The translations under genes were made by a program, and so were the position numbers. The notes under the pieces are model-generated. The model was not told the origin of the DNA and searched no databases. It was given only the letters and a program-made list of their open reading frames with translations. 8,716 nt of DNA. Source: an uncultured Synergistia bacterium. Its GTDB lineage: Bacteria > Eremiobacterota > SpSt-956 > JAKJGF01. Shown here one piece after another: positions 1 through 8,716 of this stretch (position 1 is its first letter; every line of letters begins with the position of its first letter). Location of the stretch: positions 1 through 8,716 of the forward strand of contig CALARM010000246.1 in NCBI GenBank assembly GCA_937888925.1, read 5' to 3'.

Positions 1-7
1 TCCGGGA

Positions 8-454
8 GTGAAAAATTTGTTTCAATTATCCAAAAAAACCTGTTATGGTCTTCGTGCTTTATTTGAGCTTGCCCTTGCTCATGGTAAAGGGCCTGTAACC
101 ACGTCAACAATCGCAGAAAAACAGAATATTCCCATACCGTTTCTTGAGCAGATTTTTTATGAGCTTAACAAGGGAGGTATTATATCCAGTAAAAGAGGGC
201 CAGGCGGCGGGCACAGGCTTGCTAAAAGGCCTGAAGATATAAAATTCAGTGATATAATCCAGATACTTGAAGGGCCGGAATTCCTTTTTGATTGTCTCGG
301 TCCGGAAGTCGATCTCCATGCATGTAAGGAATACAGTCTGTGTCCTTCCCGTTTATTTGTGAATCAACTTGCAAGGAAAATAAAAGATATTTTCGATACT
401 TTTACTATGACAGATTTAATCCATATATGGGTTGAAGAAGTAAGAAAGAAGTAG
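8..454 (+). CDS. Rrf2/IscR-family transcriptional regulator
   Basis: A winged helix-turn-helix regulator of the Rrf2 family, which includes IscR, NsrR and CymR; many members sense iron-sulfur, nitric oxide or cysteine status. The N-terminus (LSKKTCYGLRAL), the FLEQIFYELNKGGII recognition region (about residues 45-59) and the wing SKRGPGGGHRLA (61-72) followed by DIIQILEGP (82-90) are classic for the family. Cysteines at 96, 106 and 112 (C-x9-C-x5-C) sit where IscR-type members bind an Fe-S cluster, with wider first spacing than IscR. The length of 148 aa is normal. The start is uncertain. GTG at 8 has no visible ribosome site. TTG at 17 lies 8 nt after GGGAG (4-8) and gives MFQLSKK, closer to the usual family start. 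The frame is also open to the window edge. The stop TAG is followed directly by an in-frame TGA. The target genes cannot be told from this window. Confidence 0.93.
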   Translation: MKNLFQLSKKTCYGLRALFELALAHGKGPVTTSTIAEKQNIPIPFLEQIFYELNKGGIISSKRGPGGGHRLAKRPEDIKFSDIIQILEGPEFLFDCLGPEVDLHACKEYSLCPSRLFVNQLARKIKDIFDTFTMTDLIHIWVEEVRKK

Positions 455-542: not shown

Positions 543-605
543 CTGGTCACTGGTCACTGGTCACTGATAACTGGTCACTGGTCACTGGTCACTGGTCACT
601 GATCA
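543..605 (-). repeat. Heptamer tandem array, unit CTGGTCA (reads TGACCAG on the - strand)
   Basis: Nine 7-bp units run from 543 to 605: CTGGTCA, with variants CTGATAA at 564-570 and CTGATCA at 599-605. On the - strand they read AGTGACC, sharing the AGTGA core with the left array, so the two arrays are diverged inverted versions of one heptamer. The stop and last two codons of the M16 gene lie inside this array. Confidence 0.93.
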
Positions 606-3142
606 CCCTTCTTTCCAGGTCTTATTATAGACAGAGAATAATTTTCCAGATCGAAATATTTTTTTGCCACATTATTTACATTTTCCAGTGTTACATTCTC
701 TATAAGAAGAGGATAGGCCTTTACCCTCTCATAACCGAGTCCCAGTATTTCATATGAGGAATACTTGGTAGCCCGGGCTATTCTTTCCTGGAGAGTAATT
801 TCATATCTTCCTTTTATCATGTTTTTAGCTTTTCTCAGCTCTTCTGCAGTTACTCCTTCATCCCGGACTTTTTCCAGTTCTCTCAATAATGCTTTTATCG
901 CTTTTTCTTCCATCTCGGGGCCTGTACCTATATAAGCTTTAAAACTCCCGTTTTCTATACCATGTTCCAGATAGCAGAAAATTACATAAGCAAGACCCTG
1001 AATATCTCTGAGTTCTATAAAGAGCCTGGAACCCATGCCATGTAATATGGAATTTAATACAATAAAATCTATGTAATCTTCCGAATTTACGGAAGGAGCG
1101 AGAAAACCTATTGCTATAGATGACTGTCTTATATCTTTTTTCTTTATCGATTGTTTCATTTTCTCCGGCTTCTCTTCTCCGGCAGGACATGGGAAATCTT
1201 TCGTATTATCTCCTTTACCTCTGATAGAATGTTCAAATTCAGAAATAATATCTTCTCTGTTAAAATTACCGACAACCGATATATACAGATTTTCTCCATG
1301 GACATAATTACCATAAAAATCGATGATATCTTTTCTCTGAATATTTTTTATAGTTTTTTCTGTTCCTGTAACAGGCATTCCGTAAGGATGATGTTTAAAA
1401 ATCAGACTGTCACATTTTTCTATGCACATTCTCATCGGGTCATCGTATTTTTCTCTAATATCAGATAAAATAAAAATCCTTTCTTTTTCTATTTCATACT
1501 CAGGGAATGAAGGGTTTGTAAGGACATCGAGAAAGATATTCAATCCTTCTTTAAAATATCTATCAATAATAGCCATTGAAAGTCCGAAAGAATCTTTTCC
1601 TGACCTGGGAGATATAAAACTCCCAAGAGACTCTATCTGTTCTGCGATTTCTCTGGCAGTTCTGTTTTTAGTACCTTTTATCAGTAATTTACTCATAAAT
1701 CTGCAGATACCGTTTGTTTCTTCAGTTTCAAACCTGACTCCTCCTTTGAGTCCTGCATAGACAGCTACTACGGGCAGAGTTTTATCCTGCTCCAGTATTA
1801 ATGTCACTCCGTTTTTGAGCATGACTTTTTCTGCATTTACGGTATGTGTTTCTTCTGCTGTTTTCTTTGAAACATATGGGGCAGATTTGCTGTTACCTCT
1901 TAACAGATTTTCCATTTCTTCCGCTGATATATTCAGATGATCTTTTGAACCCAGAGGACTGTATATGGATATACTGCAATTATCAAGTTTTAGATATTTT
2001 TCTGCCACATCTTTTATATCCTGTTCCGTAATTTTTTTGAGTATATTCAGGTATTTTTTTGCCATCGTATAATCGCCAAGACCTGCACAGTGACCGATTT
2101 TATCAGATTGACCGTCTACTGTTTCCAGATCAAATAAATAATCATTTTCTATAGATACTATGGCTTTCCGCAGTTCTTCCTCTTTTACTCCCTTTTTAAT
2201 GAGTTCTATTTCATACCATAGAGCTTTAAGCATATCCGGTGCCGTATCTTCATCAGTTACTGCAGATATTATAAAAAGACCGGGGTCACGGCCGTTTATA
2301 TCTCCAGTGCCTATAGACATAGCCAGTTGCCTTTTCTCTTTGAGTTCCTGGTATAATCTCGAACTTCGTCCCTGTCCAAGGATAAAAGACAGAATTTCCA
2401 TTGTAAATGAATGTGAATGAAGTTCGTCGGGAATATGGAATCCTATGTCTATATAGGTTCTCTCTATATCACCTTTGAAATAGTCATAACGTAATTTTTT
2501 CTGAGGTACCTCTACAGGTGAAAGATTTACGGCATCTTCTTTTCTGTCAGTTAAAGGATAAAGCGCTTCAAGCTGTTCTATAAAATCTTCTATTTTAACA
2601 TTTCCTGCAAGTATAAGGGTCATATGTTCGGGACGATAATACTGGTTGTAAAAGGACATAAGTGAATCTCTTGTAAAATTTTTTATCAGGTTTTCTTCTC
2701 CTATTATAGAACGTCTGTATCTGTGCTGTTTGAAGGCAATTTTCATCAGATTTTCCCATGAACGTACAGCCGGAGTGTCATCTCTCATTTTACATTCTTC
2801 TATAATTACGTGACCTTCTTTTTCTATTTCCTGAGGATCAAAGGAAGAATGTTTCAGTGCATCAAGAAGGATTTCAAGGCCTTTTGAGAAGTTTTCTTTC
2901 GGTATGGTAATTTGATAGGCTGTTGCTTCATAACTGGTAAACCCGTTTAAATATCCGCCAAGCTCTTCTATTTCTTTTGATATTTCACCTACTTTTCTCT
3001 TCTCTGTTCCTTTAAAAAGCATATGTTCTATGAAGTGAGCAATACCTGCCATATGATCTTCTTCGTTGTTGGAGCCTGCTCTGATCCAGAGATTAATGGA
3101 AACCATTTTTGCATGTTCCATATGCTTCAATAAAATTTCCAT
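596..3142 (-). CDS. M16 (insulinase/pitrilysin) family zinc metallopeptidase, fused two-unit form
   Basis: A zinc peptidase with two M16 units in one chain (848 aa from this ATG). The first unit has the inverted zinc motif HFIEH (residues 36-40), with E116 76 residues after H40 as third ligand and E109 seven residues before it, as in active M16 enzymes. Its C-terminal half carries GQGRSSRLYQELKEKR (256-271). The second unit (about 440-848) keeps the fold but has RFMSK (481-485) in place of HxxEH and D561 in place of the glutamate, so it is expected to be inactive and to help close the substrate chamber. GMGSRLFIELRD (702-713) matches the C-terminal signature. No signal peptide is visible, so the location is unclear. 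Coordinates use the first conventional ATG, but this omits the first beta-strand of the domain. The frame continues upstream as ITRIELENG and probably starts at ATT 3202 (see separate entry). The substrate is unknown. Confidence 0.95.
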   Translation of the reverse strand: MEILLKHMEHAKMVSINLWIRAGSNNEEDHMAGIAHFIEHMLFKGTEKRKVGEISKEIEELGGYLNGFTSYEATAYQITIPKENFSKGLEILLDALKHSSFDPQEIEKEGHVIIEECKMRDDTPAVRSWENLMKIAFKQHRYRRSIIGEENLIKNFTRDSLMSFYNQYYRPEHMTLILAGNVKIEDFIEQLEALYPLTDRKEDAVNLSPVEVPQKKLRYDYFKGDIERTYIDIGFHIPDELHSHSFTMEILSFILGQGRSSRLYQELKEKRQLAMSIGTGDINGRDPGLFIISAVTDEDTAPDMLKALWYEIELIKKGVKEEELRKAIVSIENDYLFDLETVDGQSDKIGHCAGLGDYTMAKKYLNILKKITEQDIKDVAEKYLKLDNCSISIYSPLGSKDHLNISAEEMENLLRGNSKSAPYVSKKTAEETHTVNAEKVMLKNGVTLILEQDKTLPVVAVYAGLKGGVRFETEETNGICRFMSKLLIKGTKNRTAREIAEQIESLGSFISPRSGKDSFGLSMAIIDRYFKEGLNIFLDVLTNPSFPEYEIEKERIFILSDIREKYDDPMRMCIEKCDSLIFKHHPYGMPVTGTEKTIKNIQRKDIIDFYGNYVHGENLYISVVGNFNREDIISEFEHSIRGKGDNTKDFPCPAGEEKPEKMKQSIKKKDIRQSSIAIGFLAPSVNSEDYIDFIVLNSILHGMGSRLFIELRDIQGLAYVIFCYLEHGIENGSFKAYIGTGPEMEEKAIKALLRELEKVRDEGVTAEELRKAKNMIKGRYEITLQERIARATKYSSYEILGLGYERVKAYPLLIENVTLENVNNVAKKYFDLENYSLSIIRPGKKGDQ

Positions 3143-3371: not shown

Positions 3372-3400
3372 AAAAAGAGTTGTTTTTCACAACTCTTTTT
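3372..3400 (-). terminator. Intrinsic terminator closing the pilin/pseudokinase unit
   Basis: GAGTTGT (3377-3383) and ACAACTC (3389-3395) pair around a 5-nt loop, and the stem is extended by five A-T pairs (3372-3376 with 3396-3400). Read on the - strand the stem is followed by a T-rich tail (TTTTTGTTTTGTTG). It sits 68 nt after the stop of the 51-residue gene and before the M16 leader, so it separates the two units. Because it is flanked by A and T runs it may work in both directions. Confidence 0.85.
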
Positions 3401-3467: not shown

Positions 3468-3623
3468 TCAGAATTCTTCTACAACTTCTTTCAGGCATTT
3501 CTCGCATATACCATGTGACACATCCAGAAGTTCGTCACAGTCTTCTATATATTGGCCGTCAATCATAAGACAGAGACACCAGGCACATTGATGTATCTCC
3601 GGACATGTCATTAGAGCAAGCAT
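3468..3623 (-). CDS. Small cysteine-rich zinc-ribbon-like protein (51 aa)
   Basis: A short gene on the - strand with an excellent ribosome site: AGGAGGT (3631-3637), 7 nt before ATG at 3621-3623. The 51-residue product has seven cysteines (7, 13, 16, 18, 29, 40, 43), including CAWC (13-16) and CEKC (40-43), and the segment DVSHGICEKCLKEVVEEF (34-51). The pattern C-x2-C ... SHGIC-x2-C-L resembles a cysteine module I know as a tail on bacterial PAS, GGDEF and response-regulator proteins (CxxCKKIR...SHGICPxC). Here it stands alone. The two CxxC pairs could bind one zinc ion. The gene lies 106 nt after the pseudokinase stop with no terminator between them and is followed by a strong terminator, so it is probably the last gene of the pilin unit. 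The function is unknown; a regulatory or adaptor role is inference. Confidence 0.78.
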   Translation of the reverse strand: MLALMTCPEIHQCAWCLCLMIDGQYIEDCDELLDVSHGICEKCLKEVVEEF

Positions 3624-3651
3624 TTTTACCACCTCCTCTCATGAATTTTCC

Positions 3652-3729: not shown

Positions 3730-5697
3730 TTAAAATCCTCCCATAGCCACATGAGACTCCCCTGTTAAAGGAGTAAATACCATTTTTATACACTGTTTTT
3801 TTAGCGTAATTTCTTTTATCCTGTTTTTACTCATCGTATCATATACTATAATTTCACTTTTCTGGTTTTCAGCTACAGCAGGGCTGCATATATAAAAATA
3901 TTTACCATCTGATGAAAAAGTTATGGAAGCTACGTTTTTCTTTACCAGCAGCTCTCCTGTAATCCTGTTCTGTACCGGATCTATAAGCAATATACTTTTT
4001 GTTTCAGGTATTACGACACAGATCAGTTTTTCATCGGGATATACTGTAATATCTCTTGCAAATCCCGGTGTAGTGATAGTGCTTATTATTTTTTTAGTTT
4101 TTATATCAATTACCGATACTGTTTCAGATGCAGAGTTTGCAACATATAATTTCTGTACCATAGAATTAAAGGCTATTGCTACAGGTCTTCTTTCTACAGG
4201 AATATTTTTTACTAATTTATTGTTGTTAATATCAATAACAGATATGTCATTTGACGAGTAATTACATACATATAACTCTTCGCCTGCCATTACTGCATCT
4301 ACCGGTTCTTTCCCGGCAGGTATGTGAGCCAGTAACATCTGGCTTTCTCTGTCTATTACAGTTACTGAATTTCCTTTTTTGTTCAGTACAAAGAGCCTGT
4401 CACCTTTCCTGGAGAGTTTTACGCTTACCGGTTCATCTTTTACTATTATATTATTTATTTCCTTTTCCTGTTTTATGTCTATGACTGAAAGTCTGTTCCC
4501 TGTTCTTGTAACATAAAGATATTTCCCGTCAGGAGATACTGCTATACCGCCTGATGTAAGGCCTGTTTCTATTTTCCCTGTTATTTCTCCGTTAACAGCA
4601 TTCATAACTGTTATATTATGGCCGTTATATTCTAAAAGATAGGCTGATTTCTGTACCGATGAGGTATTTCTGTATAAAAATGCTGTTCCCATAAGTAAAA
4701 TCAGTGCAATTACAGCCAGCGCATACCTGATACCGGTATATCTGTTTACTGTCCACATAAGATATTCTTTCCAGCTGTTAACTTCTTTCCCGACAGGTTT
4801 ATAGAGTTTTACATTTGAATGTTCTTCCTGATGTTCTTTCTTTTTTGCTATGTCCATAGTTATCTGTGTGTCCATAAGGGGAATAGTTTTAATAGTTTCT
4901 TTTAAGTCCAGAAAATTTACAAACCTCTCTTCAGGGTTCACCTGAATACATCTGGATACAAACCTTGCAAATTGTATTGAAACAGAAGAGTTGAAATTTC
5001 TTACAGGAGAGAAATTAAGGGGATGTTTTGCAGGGTCGTCACCTGTGAGCAGATAGTAAATGATTGTTCCCAGGGCAAATATGTCTGCCCTTGTGTCTAT
5101 TTCTTTTATACCATACTGTTCAGGTGCGGAATATCCTGCTATACCCATATACCTGTTGTTTTTATAAGGCCCTTTCCTGAAAGTCCTTATAAGCCCGTAG
5201 TTTATCAATTTTACATTATTTTCTTCTGTTATCATTATATGATCAGGTGAGAGGTAATAGAATAATAAAGATGGATTTATTCTGGACAAGAATATAAACA
5301 CATTGCAGATCTGTTCGAGCCACTCTGAAATTTCTTCTATGGATATATTCCTTTCCTCTTTTATCTGTCTTAAGGTTTTACCTTCTATATATTCCATTAC
5401 AATGATCTGTCTGTTTTCCGTGCATACGGCACTTGTGATGGAAAAATAATCTATGACAGAAGCCATATGTTTATGTTTTAAGTGTTTATAAATTTCTACT
5501 TCTTCAGTCAATTTTTTTACAGCTTCTTCTCTGTCATTACTATCTATAGCTCTGTTCTGTAATTCTTTTATCATTACTTCTTTTTTGTTAATAAGATCAT
5601 AGCCTTTATATATATTACAGAATTCTCTTGATGATATACAGTTGTATATTTCATATCTTTCCTGTAATACAATTCCTTTCGGTAAGCTATTATTCAT
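3730..5697 (-). CDS. Transmembrane pseudokinase fused to a seven-blade YVTN beta-propeller
   Basis: A 655-aa protein with a Ser/Thr-kinase-like domain (about 14-272), a linker, one membrane helix (about 324-342) and an extracytoplasmic YVTN propeller (about 351-655). The kinase fold keeps the VAIK-type lysine (VMIK, K44), an alpha-C glutamate region (64-68), APE (191-193) and DIFALG (205-210). The glycine loop reads ISSREFC (21-27). The HRD segment reads FYYLSPDH (146-153), losing the Asp, Lys and Asn of HRDLKPxN. DFG reads NYG (166-168). It is therefore predicted to lack normal phosphotransfer. Seven repeats such as LYVTRTGNRLSVIDI (394-408), LYVCNYSSNDISVIDI and LYVANSASETVSVIDI make the propeller. 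Start chosen at 5697 because GGAGGT (5705-5710) lies 7 nt upstream; the frame is open to an ATG at 5769 deep inside pilX. It overlaps the pilX-like stop by 8 bp. A pilus-linked sensor or scaffold role is inferred. Confidence 0.9.
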   Translation of the reverse strand: MNNSLPKGIVLQERYEIYNCISSREFCNIYKGYDLINKKEVMIKELQNRAIDSNDREEAVKKLTEEVEIYKHLKHKHMASVIDYFSITSAVCTENRQIIVMEYIEGKTLRQIKEERNISIEEISEWLEQICNVFIFLSRINPSLLFYYLSPDHIMITEENNVKLINYGLIRTFRKGPYKNNRYMGIAGYSAPEQYGIKEIDTRADIFALGTIIYYLLTGDDPAKHPLNFSPVRNFNSSVSIQFARFVSRCIQVNPEERFVNFLDLKETIKTIPLMDTQITMDIAKKKEHQEEHSNVKLYKPVGKEVNSWKEYLMWTVNRYTGIRYALAVIALILLMGTAFLYRNTSSVQKSAYLLEYNGHNITVMNAVNGEITGKIETGLTSGGIAVSPDGKYLYVTRTGNRLSVIDIKQEKEINNIIVKDEPVSVKLSRKGDRLFVLNKKGNSVTVIDRESQMLLAHIPAGKEPVDAVMAGEELYVCNYSSNDISVIDINNNKLVKNIPVERRPVAIAFNSMVQKLYVANSASETVSVIDIKTKKIISTITTPGFARDITVYPDEKLICVVIPETKSILLIDPVQNRITGELLVKKNVASITFSSDGKYFYICSPAVAENQKSEIIVYDTMSKNRIKEITLKKQCIKMVFTPLTGESHVAMGGF

Positions 5698-7600
5698 TTT
5701 CGACACCTCCTGATTGCCATGATGTAATCTGCGCTCCTCTCGGAAATTCCGGCGGATGGTTTGTAGCAAGAGACGGGTCCGGACCGTAATCTCTGTAAGG
5801 AGGATTATACTGCGCTCCTGTAACCCATGCTGCTATACCGCTCCCTGTATTTGAATTAGTCCAGTCTGCCATAGTAGAATTCTGTAAATGAATTATAGAG
5901 CCCCTCTTTTTTAACGTCCTGGACGTCCCCCAGTCTTCAAGGAGATCATCTACATTCGGCCACTGGTTATTCAAAGTATTATTATAAAAGGGATTTGTTG
6001 AACCTCCCCAGTTTTTTCTATAATACCTTTCATCCACTGTAGGTACGCCGTCTATGATAGCCCCGTTGACTTCCATAACATTTAACGCATCACTGGTATA
6101 TCCTGTTTTTTTCGGATCATTGGCATATTTCAGTACCCTTGTGCCGGACGGGTGTTCCGGGTCTTTCCAGCTTGCTGACAGAAAATATACCCTCGATGTG
6201 CTGCAGATTGCTGCAGGCTGTTTTTTCGTATACGACGAATTTGATATATGACTGTTATAATCTGACTGAGTCGGTAATTCCATATTAAAATCACTTTTTA
6301 CATATACATTATAAGGACTGACTATTGTCACAGGCCCCGGAAGTTCTTCTCCGTTTATTATCCTTACAGGTGTATCTGCGTAAATTATTCCGTTGTCTGG
6401 CCAGATTTTATCGGAACTGTTTCCGTTTCCGTCCGGATCAAGCATTTTCTTAATATCTATATCTACAACTGTTTCAGACCTTCCTTCATTTTCGTTCCAG
6501 AAAGAAGTGCATCCTCCGGCTGAGACTCTTTCCCCTGAAGTTATTACTGCATTCTGGACAGTTGACGGAACTGAAGTGGAACCATTGAAATATTCTGCTC
6601 CGGTAGCGGTAATTCTCAGACCTGCAGCTATGGCTTTTTGATCATAATAGCCTCCTTCTGTAAAGGATTGAAAATTCGGAACGTTGATAGTCTGAGCTCC
6701 TGTGGAAGAATCTTTTACTGTTCCGCTCCATTTGTCAAGAGAGCCCCTGTCGTTGCCCGGTATGTTTTCTGCCCACTCTGTATGGTTGTGATCATAGGCC
6801 ACACCTGATGCTCCGCCGGTAAGTTCTATTTCGTTTCCATTGTTATTATCTATATATATATGAGAACCTGACTGCCATGGCCTTCCCCACGCATCCTGTG
6901 ATGCTATGATACTTCTTGCACAGGTTACGGAAATTATACCGGTGGAATCTTTCTTTAATTTTAAGGTCGAGCCGCTTGGTCTCATATATAAGTTACCATT
7001 TGTATGTATTTTGCCGTACACAGTCTGGTTTGGGCCTCGCACGAATTCACTTAAATCCTGGTTGTCGAAGATTGTATACTCAAGAAGATTTGTGCGTGAC
7101 CCTCTGATAATTATAGATTTTGCCATATTTCCTCCAAAGGATATTTTTCCTATGGATTTTATTACAAAATCACTTCCTTCCGGATATATTTGAAACATAA
7201 ATTCCTCCCCGTAAGATGAGCCCAGCATAGAATCATGAGGATCACCGGGTTCCCATTTCCATCTGATCCATCCGTCGCAGTTTCCTTCTGTGATTCTTGA
7301 AAAACCCGGATAGGAAGGAATACCTGTGAAAAGAGGAGCATCATCTTCATATTTAGTATTTTCATTTTCATGGGTATATCTGCCGAAATTATTTGAGCTG
7401 AATATGGAATAGGCCATATCTATACCGGCCTCTGTCAGATAGAAAACCTGTTCACTTCTTTTTTCCCTGAGAAGAAAATATGATTCTGCAATTGTTTCTT
7501 TAACGATACATCCGAGAAGGAGAAGAAGTACAGGCACAAAAGAAAGAACTGTAAAGAGGGCTATCCCTTTTTCTTTGAAGATTTCTTTTAAGAATTTCAT
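5690..7600 (-). CDS. PilX-like minor pilin/assembly protein with large extracellular domain
   Basis: A 636-aa protein. The N-terminus has a basic stretch (MKFLKEIFKEKG), a hydrophobic helix (13-33) and then EQVFYLTEAGID (50-61), the typical end of a PilX N-terminal domain. G12/I13 is the likely prepilin-type site; position +5 is Thr rather than Glu, as is common in PilX and GspK. The ectodomain has segments familiar from large PilX-like/DUF4900-like proteins: YGKIHTNGNLYM (195-206), NGIIYADTPVRI (403-414) followed by GPVTIVSPYNVYVKSDFN (422-439), and a C-terminal PPEFPRGAQITSW (616-628). DPDGNGNSSD (388-397) resembles a calcium loop. It is far longer than typical PilX, so it may act as a tip or adhesive subunit. 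ATG follows GGAGGT (7608-7613) by 7 nt. A lipobox-like LLGC (28-31) is an alternative reading of the N-terminus. The family call is strong, the exact role is not. Confidence 0.82.
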   Translation of the reverse strand: MKFLKEIFKEKGIALFTVLSFVPVLLLLLGCIVKETIAESYFLLREKRSEQVFYLTEAGIDMAYSIFSSNNFGRYTHENENTKYEDDAPLFTGIPSYPGFSRITEGNCDGWIRWKWEPGDPHDSMLGSSYGEEFMFQIYPEGSDFVIKSIGKISFGGNMAKSIIIRGSRTNLLEYTIFDNQDLSEFVRGPNQTVYGKIHTNGNLYMRPSGSTLKLKKDSTGIISVTCARSIIASQDAWGRPWQSGSHIYIDNNNGNEIELTGGASGVAYDHNHTEWAENIPGNDRGSLDKWSGTVKDSSTGAQTINVPNFQSFTEGGYYDQKAIAAGLRITATGAEYFNGSTSVPSTVQNAVITSGERVSAGGCTSFWNENEGRSETVVDIDIKKMLDPDGNGNSSDKIWPDNGIIYADTPVRIINGEELPGPVTIVSPYNVYVKSDFNMELPTQSDYNSHISNSSYTKKQPAAICSTSRVYFLSASWKDPEHPSGTRVLKYANDPKKTGYTSDALNVMEVNGAIIDGVPTVDERYYRKNWGGSTNPFYNNTLNNQWPNVDDLLEDWGTSRTLKKRGSIIHLQNSTMADWTNSNTGSGIAAWVTGAQYNPPYRDYGPDPSLATNHPPEFPRGAQITSWQSGGVENE

Positions 7601-7619: not shown

Positions 7620-7647
7620 GTAGAGGCGTTTATTAAAACGTCTCTAC
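7620..7647. repeat. Intercistronic palindrome between pilW-like and pilX-like genes
   Basis: GTAGAGGCGTTT (7620-7631) and AAACGTCTCTAC (7636-7647) pair over 12 positions with one imperfect pair and a 4-nt loop. The element begins within the pilW-like stop codon and ends 6 bases before the pilX ribosome site. On the - strand it is followed by A6, not T, so it is not a classical terminator. Its form resembles dispersed REP-like palindromes with GTAGAGACG ... CGTCTCTAC arms, recalled from other bacterial genomes but not checked. It may adjust mRNA stability or the ratio of the two pilins. Confidence 0.75.
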
Positions 7648-8321
7648 CTGTTATTCCTCATAAAATAACCGGATTCTATCTTTTGCTGAACAGGGGGAAG
7701 GTTTGCCAGTTTTCTTTCTACTTTCACTGCCGCAGTTTTTATGCCTCTTGGAGGGTCGAATACGGTAAATTCCAATCCCTGTGGCTCAATATAATGGGCC
7801 AGAACAGTAAAGTTTGTATCAGAACTGGTAATAACTGTTTGAAGATTAACTGATAAGGGATCTACAGGACTGGCCTGTGTACCTTCTGTTGTGTTATAGC
7901 AAAACCTTACAAGTTGCTGTGCCCCCGGATTATATCTGTCAGGGCTACTCTGTCCCTCCAGAAAATAACCTGTTATGGTATAATTACCGCTTCTTATACC
8001 ATTCGAATCTATGGCAGGAATAGCTACTGCAATAGTATAGCCGGGACTATCAGGATAGAGCGGATCAGGCGGTATTTGATAGGTTTTGCTTTTATAGATA
8101 AAAGTTCTTCCTGTATAAATTATTTCTGCCATTTTAAAATCCGAATTCATTCTGTGCAGGGCTGTCCTGAGTTCTCTTCTGGAGTCTATGGTAGTAATAT
8201 CAACTGTGTAGATTTTTCTCACACATAACCATACAGATACTACAGTAGAAGTACATAAAAGAAAGATGAATGTAGCTATCAGTAGTTCTGTCAGAGTCAG
8301 ACCTTTAAAGTTGTATTTCAT
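7644..8321 (-). CDS. PilW-like prepilin (minor pilin)
   Basis: A 225-aa prepilin. The leader MKYNFKG is followed by LTLTELLIATFIFLLCTS, a class III signal cut after G7 by prepilin peptidase, with Glu at +5 (E12) as required for pilin packing; Leu instead of Phe at +1 is tolerated. The hydrophobic helix spans about 8-32, then RRELRTALHRMNSDFKMAE (43-61) continues the amphipathic alpha-1 spine, as in PilW and GspJ. The rest is a variable beta-rich head with few cysteines. ATG follows AAGGAG (8331-8336) by 9 nt. It lies between the pilV-like and pilX-like genes, the usual order of minor pilin operons, supporting a role in the priming or tip complex of a type IV pilus or pseudopilus. Confidence 0.87.
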   Translation of the reverse strand: MKYNFKGLTLTELLIATFIFLLCTSTVVSVWLCVRKIYTVDITTIDSRRELRTALHRMNSDFKMAEIIYTGRTFIYKSKTYQIPPDPLYPDSPGYTIAVAIPAIDSNGIRSGNYTITGYFLEGQSSPDRYNPGAQQLVRFCYNTTEGTQASPVDPLSVNLQTVITSSDTNFTVLAHYIEPQGLEFTVFDPPRGIKTAAVKVERKLANLPPVQQKIESGYFMRNNR

Positions 8322-8452: not shown

Positions 8453-8716
8453 CTACTTTCTTGAAATGTATGTACTGATCTGGATAAGTTTATTCCCGGA
8501 CGGTTGCGGAGTAGCTGATTTTTTATCATGATAATATACTCTCAATGTAACTTTTTTTAAGGTGTCTCCTTCAAGAGTTGATACGGAAACATCATATATC
8601 AATCTGCTTGTATCGGAGTTTTCTATATCGGTAAAGGAATAGGGAATATCTGAAAGAGAACTGAATTTACTTGTATCTATAATATCGGATCTTATATGTT
8701 CTATTTTTTGCTGGGC
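8453..8716 (-). CDS. PilV/GspI-like prepilin, C-terminal part (cut by window edge)
   Basis: An open - strand frame of 87 codons from the window edge to TAG at 8453-8455; the start lies outside. The visible part begins AQQKIEHIRSDI, matching the ALAQQKIEEIRS stretch that follows the hydrophobic helix of PilV and GspI proteins. It continues with a beta-rich segment YDVSVSTLEGDTLKKVTLRV (41-60) and ends KLIQISTYISRK, the usual form of the short C-terminal sheet in this family. It is probably the gene before pilW-like in the same operon. The prepilin signal cannot be seen, so the family call rests on this C-terminal pattern and on context. Confidence 0.78.
   Translation of the reverse strand, partial: AQQKIEHIRSDIIDTSKFSSLSDIPYSFTDIENSDTSRLIYDVSVSTLEGDTLKKVTLRVYYHDKKSATPQPSGNKLIQISTYISRK

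Follow-up and report, generated by a model that had tools for sequence, protein, structure and literature searches.

An 8,716-nucleotide stretch of DNA from an uncultured Synergistia bacterium (placed by GTDB in the Eremiobacterota; CALARM010000246.1, here called the window) encodes a protein in which a kinase-like domain stripped of catalytic residues precedes a YVTN beta-propeller. The question raised by this locus is whether a kinase is decaying or a domain without catalysis is kept for another job, and what that job may be. An initial annotation, made from the DNA letters, had suggested selection for a non-catalytic role, such as that of a sensor or scaffold.

The gene lies at 3730..5697 on the minus strand, the coordinates first given for it being correct, and encodes a protein of 655 aa (P0001) with a pseudokinase - transmembrane - propeller layout according to its open reading frame, translation and Pfam. 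The ATG start is at 5697-5695 and the stop codon ends at 3730. An alternative, longer reading frame begins at TTG 5769. This start is disfavoured because an AGGAGG Shine-Dalgarno sequence (5706..5711, minus strand) is found 8 nt before the ATG and because the alignment with the relatives P0003 and P0004 begins at this Met. Downstream, a hairpin scan detected a terminator-like hairpin (3372..3400, minus strand), which is weak evidence since the region contains 8 such sites against 3.4 (sd 2.0) in shuffled sequences. A 54-aa open reading frame beginning at GTG, with the paired cysteines CAWC and CEKC, lies between the pseudokinase gene and this hairpin (3468-3632, minus strand) and had no match in Pfam. 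A two-unit M16 peptidase (596-3142, minus strand) and an Rrf2-type regulator (2-454, plus strand) are ordinary genes of the window.

Both a family match and a bilobal model assign the N-terminal half to the Hanks-type (PknB-like) kinase fold. PF00069 matches residues 25-259 (E 6.3e-27, 95.0 bits, cut-off 31.7), and together with the kinase-only model and Foldseek it delimits a kinase-like domain at residues 8-275 (4873..5676, minus strand). P0001 also matches several propeller families in Pfam and the YVTN repeats TIGR02276 in NCBIfam (E 3.6e-34), which confirms the domain pair of the initial annotation. The propeller spans residues 350-645 (3763..4650, minus strand; Pfam, NCBIfam and model) and is modelled with 28 strands as seven blades. 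In the full-length model (pLDDT 76.6, pTM 0.49), the propeller is confident, and the linker and activation loop are weak. The best 50 PDB matches of this model are propellers throughout, so a separate model of the kinase half was built and searched. The propeller's best match is 1l0q, a YVTN propeller from a surface-layer protein of an archaeon. Structure prediction, which had been proposed as a check, gave a confident kinase-only model from 54 sequences (pLDDT 87.5, pTM 0.85); its first Foldseek match among solved folds is PknB, and WNK, Stk1, PknA, and other kinases are among the matches listed.

The only hydropathy windows above 1.4 mark a predicted transmembrane helix at about residues 323-345 (4663..4731, minus strand). 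Six Lys/Arg residues precede the helix and two follow it, which would place the kinase half in the cytoplasm. For the earlier claim that the halves are joined through the membrane there is thus one predicted helix. From this single hydropathy peak and the positive-inside count, the topology is predicted as kinase half inside and propeller outside. A cultured member of the phylum is described as having a Gram-negative envelope and type IV pili (PMC9758169), so "outside" is likely the periplasm.

The residues singled out at first inspection are all present, namely I21-S-S-R-E-F-C27, K44, FYYLSPDH (146-153), NYG (166-168), APE (191-193), and DIFALG (205-210). At the glycine-loop position, I21-S-S-R-E-F26 contains no glycine by sequence and alignment (5620..5637, minus strand, as are all codons that follow). 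FYYLSPDH replaces HRDLKPEN (5239..5262) and NYG replaces DFG (5194..5202), which changes the HRD Asp to Tyr148, the loop Asn to His153, and the DFG Asp to Asn166. In addition, the catalytic-loop Lys is Ser150 and the P+1 Thr is Ile, two changes absent from the initial annotation, as was the retention of the aC Glu66 (5500..5502) beside that of the b3 Lys44 (5566..5568).

A protein database search returned 155 proteins at E 1e-3, and 22 of them (P0002-P0023) are close relatives. With P0001 and one locus from a genome search (L001, on the same contig as L046, in genome G001), these make a clade of 24. P0012 and P0022 are short, P0023 is partial at the N-lobe in the alignment, and P0008 and P0021 are possible assembly chimeras. 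The 24 form one clade in a FastTree of 197 domains (support 0.991). When seven catalytic columns were masked, the 16 of the 24 used in a 59-row IQ-TREE still grouped together (100/96, in a run whose bootstrap had not fully settled). The searches also described the distribution of the family. A single-protein search of genome contigs with P0001 gave no matches, and the same contigs searched with the alignment gave one locus. Viral contigs gave no matches, and of 149 genomes of the phylum, each scored for up to 8 candidates, one was positive at E 1e-75. The best 120 of 496 proteins from a second protein search added P0122, a sister-clade protein, and contained no new clade member. The relatives P0003, P0025, and P0026 are named "Candidatus Eremiobacterota bacterium".

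Within the clade, the three substitutions are fixed. Asp to Tyr, Asn to His, and Asp to Asn occur together in 24/24 members, so that by HRD Asp, loop Asn, and DFG Asp none qualifies as an active protein kinase. Position 150 is likewise Ser or Thr in all 24. The P+1 Thr is lost in every member (Ile in 20, Val in 3, Met in 1); Thr or Ser occupies this site in 105 of 121 other kinase-like domains of G001. Glu is kept at the aC site in 24/24 and Lys at the b3 site in all 23 members with a letter there. This alignment of homologues, suggested with the initial annotation, found the changes at Tyr148 and Asn166 conserved, and an HRD Asp or DFG Asp in 0 of the 23 other clade members; intact homologues had been named as the sign of mere decay. 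Decay of a single copy is ruled out by the identical substitutions in all 24. In all 24, the kinase-like domain is thus without the residues that normally serve catalysis and metal binding, and the case for a pseudokinase is strong. The conserved Lys44 and Glu66 are compatible with nucleotide binding, which P0001 may retain.

Conservation is also uneven along the protein. In 18 of the 24 sequences (alignment A2), mean pairwise identity is 62.6% in the kinase half versus 36.5% in the propeller, and the kinase half is the more conserved in 143 of 153 pairs. Invariant sites peak in the DFG-APE stretch (14/31) and in the EQYG-aF-aG stretch (20/41), a pattern that we take as a probable sign of selection on a binding surface. 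The shared triple, the 143 of 153 pairs, and the confident kinase model give good support to the view that the domain is not decaying and is selected for a job other than catalysis. As a separate observation, P0008 and P0009 have nearly identical kinase halves but their propellers differ (51% and 21% identical with that of P0001), and P0021 changes partner midway. These may be cases of propeller swapping or assembly chimeras.

The nearest group that has both Asp residues is a sister clade of five proteins (P0024-P0027 and P0122) with the same architecture and 28-30% identity. It keeps the HRD Asp, loop Asn, and DFG Asp in 5/5, and shows the mirror-image loss: the b3 Lys is Arg in 5/5 and the aC Glu is Arg or Lys in 5/5. 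The reading of this sister clade as an intact active kinase was dropped for these two replacements. On the next branch, made up of five G001 domains and P0038, the DFG Asp is Asn and the aC Glu is absent in 6/6. Together the three groups comprise 35 domains, each of which is missing two or more of the five canonical residues, by routes that differ between the groups; such a deficit is seen in 9 of 121 other G001 domains. The three groups are jointly supported at 97/86 in the masked IQ-TREE and at 0.957 in FastTree.

Three G001 open reading frames pair a kinase-like region with the propeller of this clade, in a count that covers kinases with this propeller type because the propeller model was built from the window's clade family. 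The full set of Lys and both Asp is present in none of the five kinase-like domains in these frames; of 122 other domains, 17 are incomplete (Fisher p 1e-4, the five domains in three frames not being independent). Two cases run counter to an exact rule that ties this propeller to degeneracy. The Streptomyces protein P0127 has a YVTN propeller with HRDVKPAN and TDYG, and L009, in the degenerate branch, has no propeller in its open reading frame.

The genes upstream of the pseudokinase gene on the same strand encode, in order, a PilV-like, a PilW-like, and a PilX-like protein, labels that derive from sub-threshold family matches and gene order. The PilX-like gene (636 aa, 5690..7600, minus strand) overlaps the pseudokinase gene by 8 nt. 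Its product has no Pfam match, and the homologue in G001 matches PilX_N at E 7e-4 and 20.0 bits, under the cut-off of 25.5. The PilW/GspJ-like minor pilin gene (225 aa, 7644..8321, minus strand) matches N_methyl at E 0.0018 and 18.2 bits, under the cut-off of 21.2. The PilV/GspI-like pilin gene (8453..8716, minus strand) has its 5' end beyond the window; its product has no Pfam match and a weak match to the first gene of a trio at locus L042 (E 4e-4).

At E 1e-8, four of the 149 genomes of the phylum contain PilX-like homologues. By reading-frame size and partial matches, the same three-gene order is found in G136 and at one of two G140 loci, and G141 has a W-like and an X-like gene. No kinase gene lies beside the PilX-like loci of G136, G140 (two), and G141 in the stretches read, the downstream side of the G141 locus running off its contig. 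G001 has a single PilX-like match at E 1e-8 (L032, 5771-7858, minus strand), 240 bp away from a degenerate kinase-transmembrane-YVTN gene of 1255 aa (L032, 1763-5530, plus strand). These two genes are convergent and thus not one operon. The 1255-aa protein carries two degenerate kinase-like domains that differ from each other, one with GSLSPGH and LNYG and the other with GDLRPSN and LNYG, besides a charged linker, a hydrophobic segment, and the YVTN propeller; a similar protein is encoded at L079. No pilin genes are present on the 5264-base contig of the G001 clade member (L001/L046), so linkage of orthologues to pilin genes outside the window is unsupported in the single readable case. Two overlapping open reading frames of similar length (L001, 398-1492 and 1489-2523, plus strand) lie upstream of this clade member and have no convincing Pfam match. 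Gene order at two of the six PilX-like loci read (the window and G001) supports a link to the PilX-like protein, and a role at the pilus would follow from it by conjecture.

A second connection to pili comes from the kinases of G001. The alignment gave 148 matches in this genome, some of them propeller-only, and the stretches fetched contain 145 distinct kinase-like domains. Some 145 such domains are thus carried by a 5 Mb genome. Among the 130 that cover all three sites, 108 have the Lys and both Asp. The DFG Asp is absent in 13 of the 130, and 6 of those 13 keep the Lys and HRD Asp; one kinase on L032 (11773-13230, minus strand) has HRDIKPSN with NFG replacing DFG. G001 has five PilM homologues. 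In four of the five, the same reading frame also encodes a kinase domain in which Lys, Glu, and both Asp are intact (L016:1375-3663, L092:489-2882, L092:2882-5137, and L087:1-2181, the last on the minus strand). The same type of fusion is seen in P0148, which is named "pilus assembly protein PilM [Candidatus Eremiobacterota bacterium]". These translations show that the lineage fuses kinase domains to a protein of the pilus platform, and such PilM-fused kinases could offer a cytoplasmic partner for the pseudokinase half.

The reading that we favour, and hold tentatively, is that the membrane pseudokinase is a scaffold or sensor which links a pilin complex at the outer face of the inner membrane to cytoplasmic partners. 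On the periplasmic side, the PilV/W/X-like pilins would be bound by the propeller, as by PilY1 in other systems, and in the cytoplasm the conserved activation segment and aF region would let the pseudokinase half dock onto a partner. The best candidates for this partner are the PilM-fused kinases carried by relatives. Assembly or surface contact would then be relayed by binding and not by phosphate transfer, and the protein would act through conformation. Several lines of evidence point this way: the PilX-like gene that overlaps by 8 nt, the 240-bp spacing in G001, the four of five PilM homologues fused to intact kinases together with P0148, and the precedent of EssB/YukC, a membrane pseudokinase hub of an export machine (PMC9600267). 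The retention of Lys44 and Glu66, which a pure scaffold would not need, weakens the scaffold part of this reading. Also counting against the reading are the G001 clade member without pilin neighbours, the four of six PilX-like loci without a kinase in the stretches read, the convergent orientation of the G001 pair, the sub-threshold pilin labels, the absence of a propeller from the L009 frame, and the HRDVKPAN and TDYG of P0127.

A pilus-independent receptor is a possible alternative to which we give somewhat less credence. Here, the variable propeller would sense a periplasmic ligand, the dead kinase would switch an active kinase, and the pilin neighbours would be chance or passenger genes. 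A protein conserved inside and divergent outside is receptor-like, the G001 clade member has no pilin neighbour, and partners abound in a genome where 108 of 130 kinase-like domains have Lys and both Asp. However, chance neighbours fit poorly with the 8-nt overlap and with the second adjacency of a PilX-like gene and a kinase-propeller gene in G001.

It is rather improbable that the domain is a nucleotide-dependent switch or performs other chemistry, with Lys44 and Glu66 anchoring a nucleotide without the usual metal and with binding, or a different kind of transfer, as the output. The conservation of these two residues would suit such a switch, and SelO and SidJ are described as pseudokinases with other activities (PMC12599244), but the protein has neither of the Asp residues, no loop Asn, and no glycine in the glycine loop, and no other catalytic residue was identified. 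A kinase on its way to loss is the least credible explanation by far: degenerate kinase domains are not rare in the lineage (22 of the 130 G001 domains lack at least one of Lys, Asp, and Asp), yet identical substitutions across the clade, open frames, a well-conserved kinase half, and a confident kinase-only model speak against decay.

The scaffold or sensor reading can be extended to a bolder scheme, which we consider unlikely as a whole. The clade would be a new pseudokinase family of Candidatus Eremiobacterota that performs the PilY1 job from the inner membrane, its propeller capping a minor-pilin priming complex and its dead kinase docking on the active kinases fused to PilM. A kinase/pseudokinase pair would thereby join pilus assembly to a kinase cascade, and the mirror losses of the sister clade would represent complementary halves of a split kinase.

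To our knowledge, few bacterial pseudokinases have a known function. A 2025 review describes seven bacterial families (PMC12599244), and the residue pattern of the window's clade fits none of them as described there. The b3 Lys is replaced in ActPs1, ActPs2, ActPs3, and GLW, and is present as Lys44 or its equivalent in 23/23 here. CP1 is described with a COG3899 domain and no transmembrane segment; P0001 has a predicted one, and a propeller instead. DLHK keeps the HRD Asp and has no transmembrane segment, as against Tyr148 and a predicted helix in P0001 (all PMC12599244). DYD pseudokinases resemble the sister clade in that they are membrane-associated, have Arg for the b3 Lys, and lack the aC Glu. 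They are reported, with the DYD motif, from actinobacteria and firmicutes (PMC12599244). The sister clade instead reads DYG, and Lys and Glu are both retained in the clade of P0001. The words "propeller", "YVTN", "pilus", and "Eremiobacter" do not occur in the main text of that review. In the open-licence literature, we found no pseudokinase with YVTN repeats and no PilM-kinase fusion; by titles and the starts of abstracts it contains no pseudokinase of this kind with a type IV pilus, and by title nothing relevant on an Eremiobacterota protein kinase.

Among propeller proteins, PilY1 is encoded with minor pilins and belongs to the priming complex (PMC7541494). The pseudokinase gene shares this neighbourhood in the window, and the G001 orthologue was not seen to do so. 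The best 25 of 33 Pfam matches of P0001, down to E 0.0079, include no PilY1 family. We know of no kinase-like half or membrane anchor in PilY1. PknD of Mycobacterium tuberculosis has the same kinase - membrane - propeller layout, in which the propeller is described as a sensor (PMC3322341). It differs in being a kinase with a six-bladed propeller, whereas the window protein has lost its catalytic residues and is modelled with seven blades.

Two further comparisons concern membrane pseudokinases. In MviN (ActPs3), a membrane protein likewise uses a pseudokinase to recruit a cytoplasmic partner; MviN lacks the b3 Lys and its family has an activation-loop deletion, neither of which applies to the window protein (PMC12599244). 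EssB/YukC of type VIIb secretion also combines a cytoplasmic pseudokinase, one membrane pass, and an extracytoplasmic part, and is described as the hub of its export machine (PMC12599244, PMC9600267). In EssB the VAIK motif has been lost along with the other two, the activation loop is reduced, and there is no propeller (PMC12599244). In contrast, the window's clade conserves Lys44, Glu66, and a full-length activation segment, so the protein is not an EssB/YukC member by motif loss, and this hub, the nearest well-studied case of a membrane pseudokinase in an export machine, serves as a model for it by analogy. In this lineage, a fixed set of substitutions is found together with a sister clade that has lost the opposite residues, with pilin-like genes next door, and with PilM proteins fused to kinases. 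If the proposed role is correct, it becomes testable whether type IV pilus machines in the phylum rely on a kinase paired with a pseudokinase to assemble or to sense surfaces.
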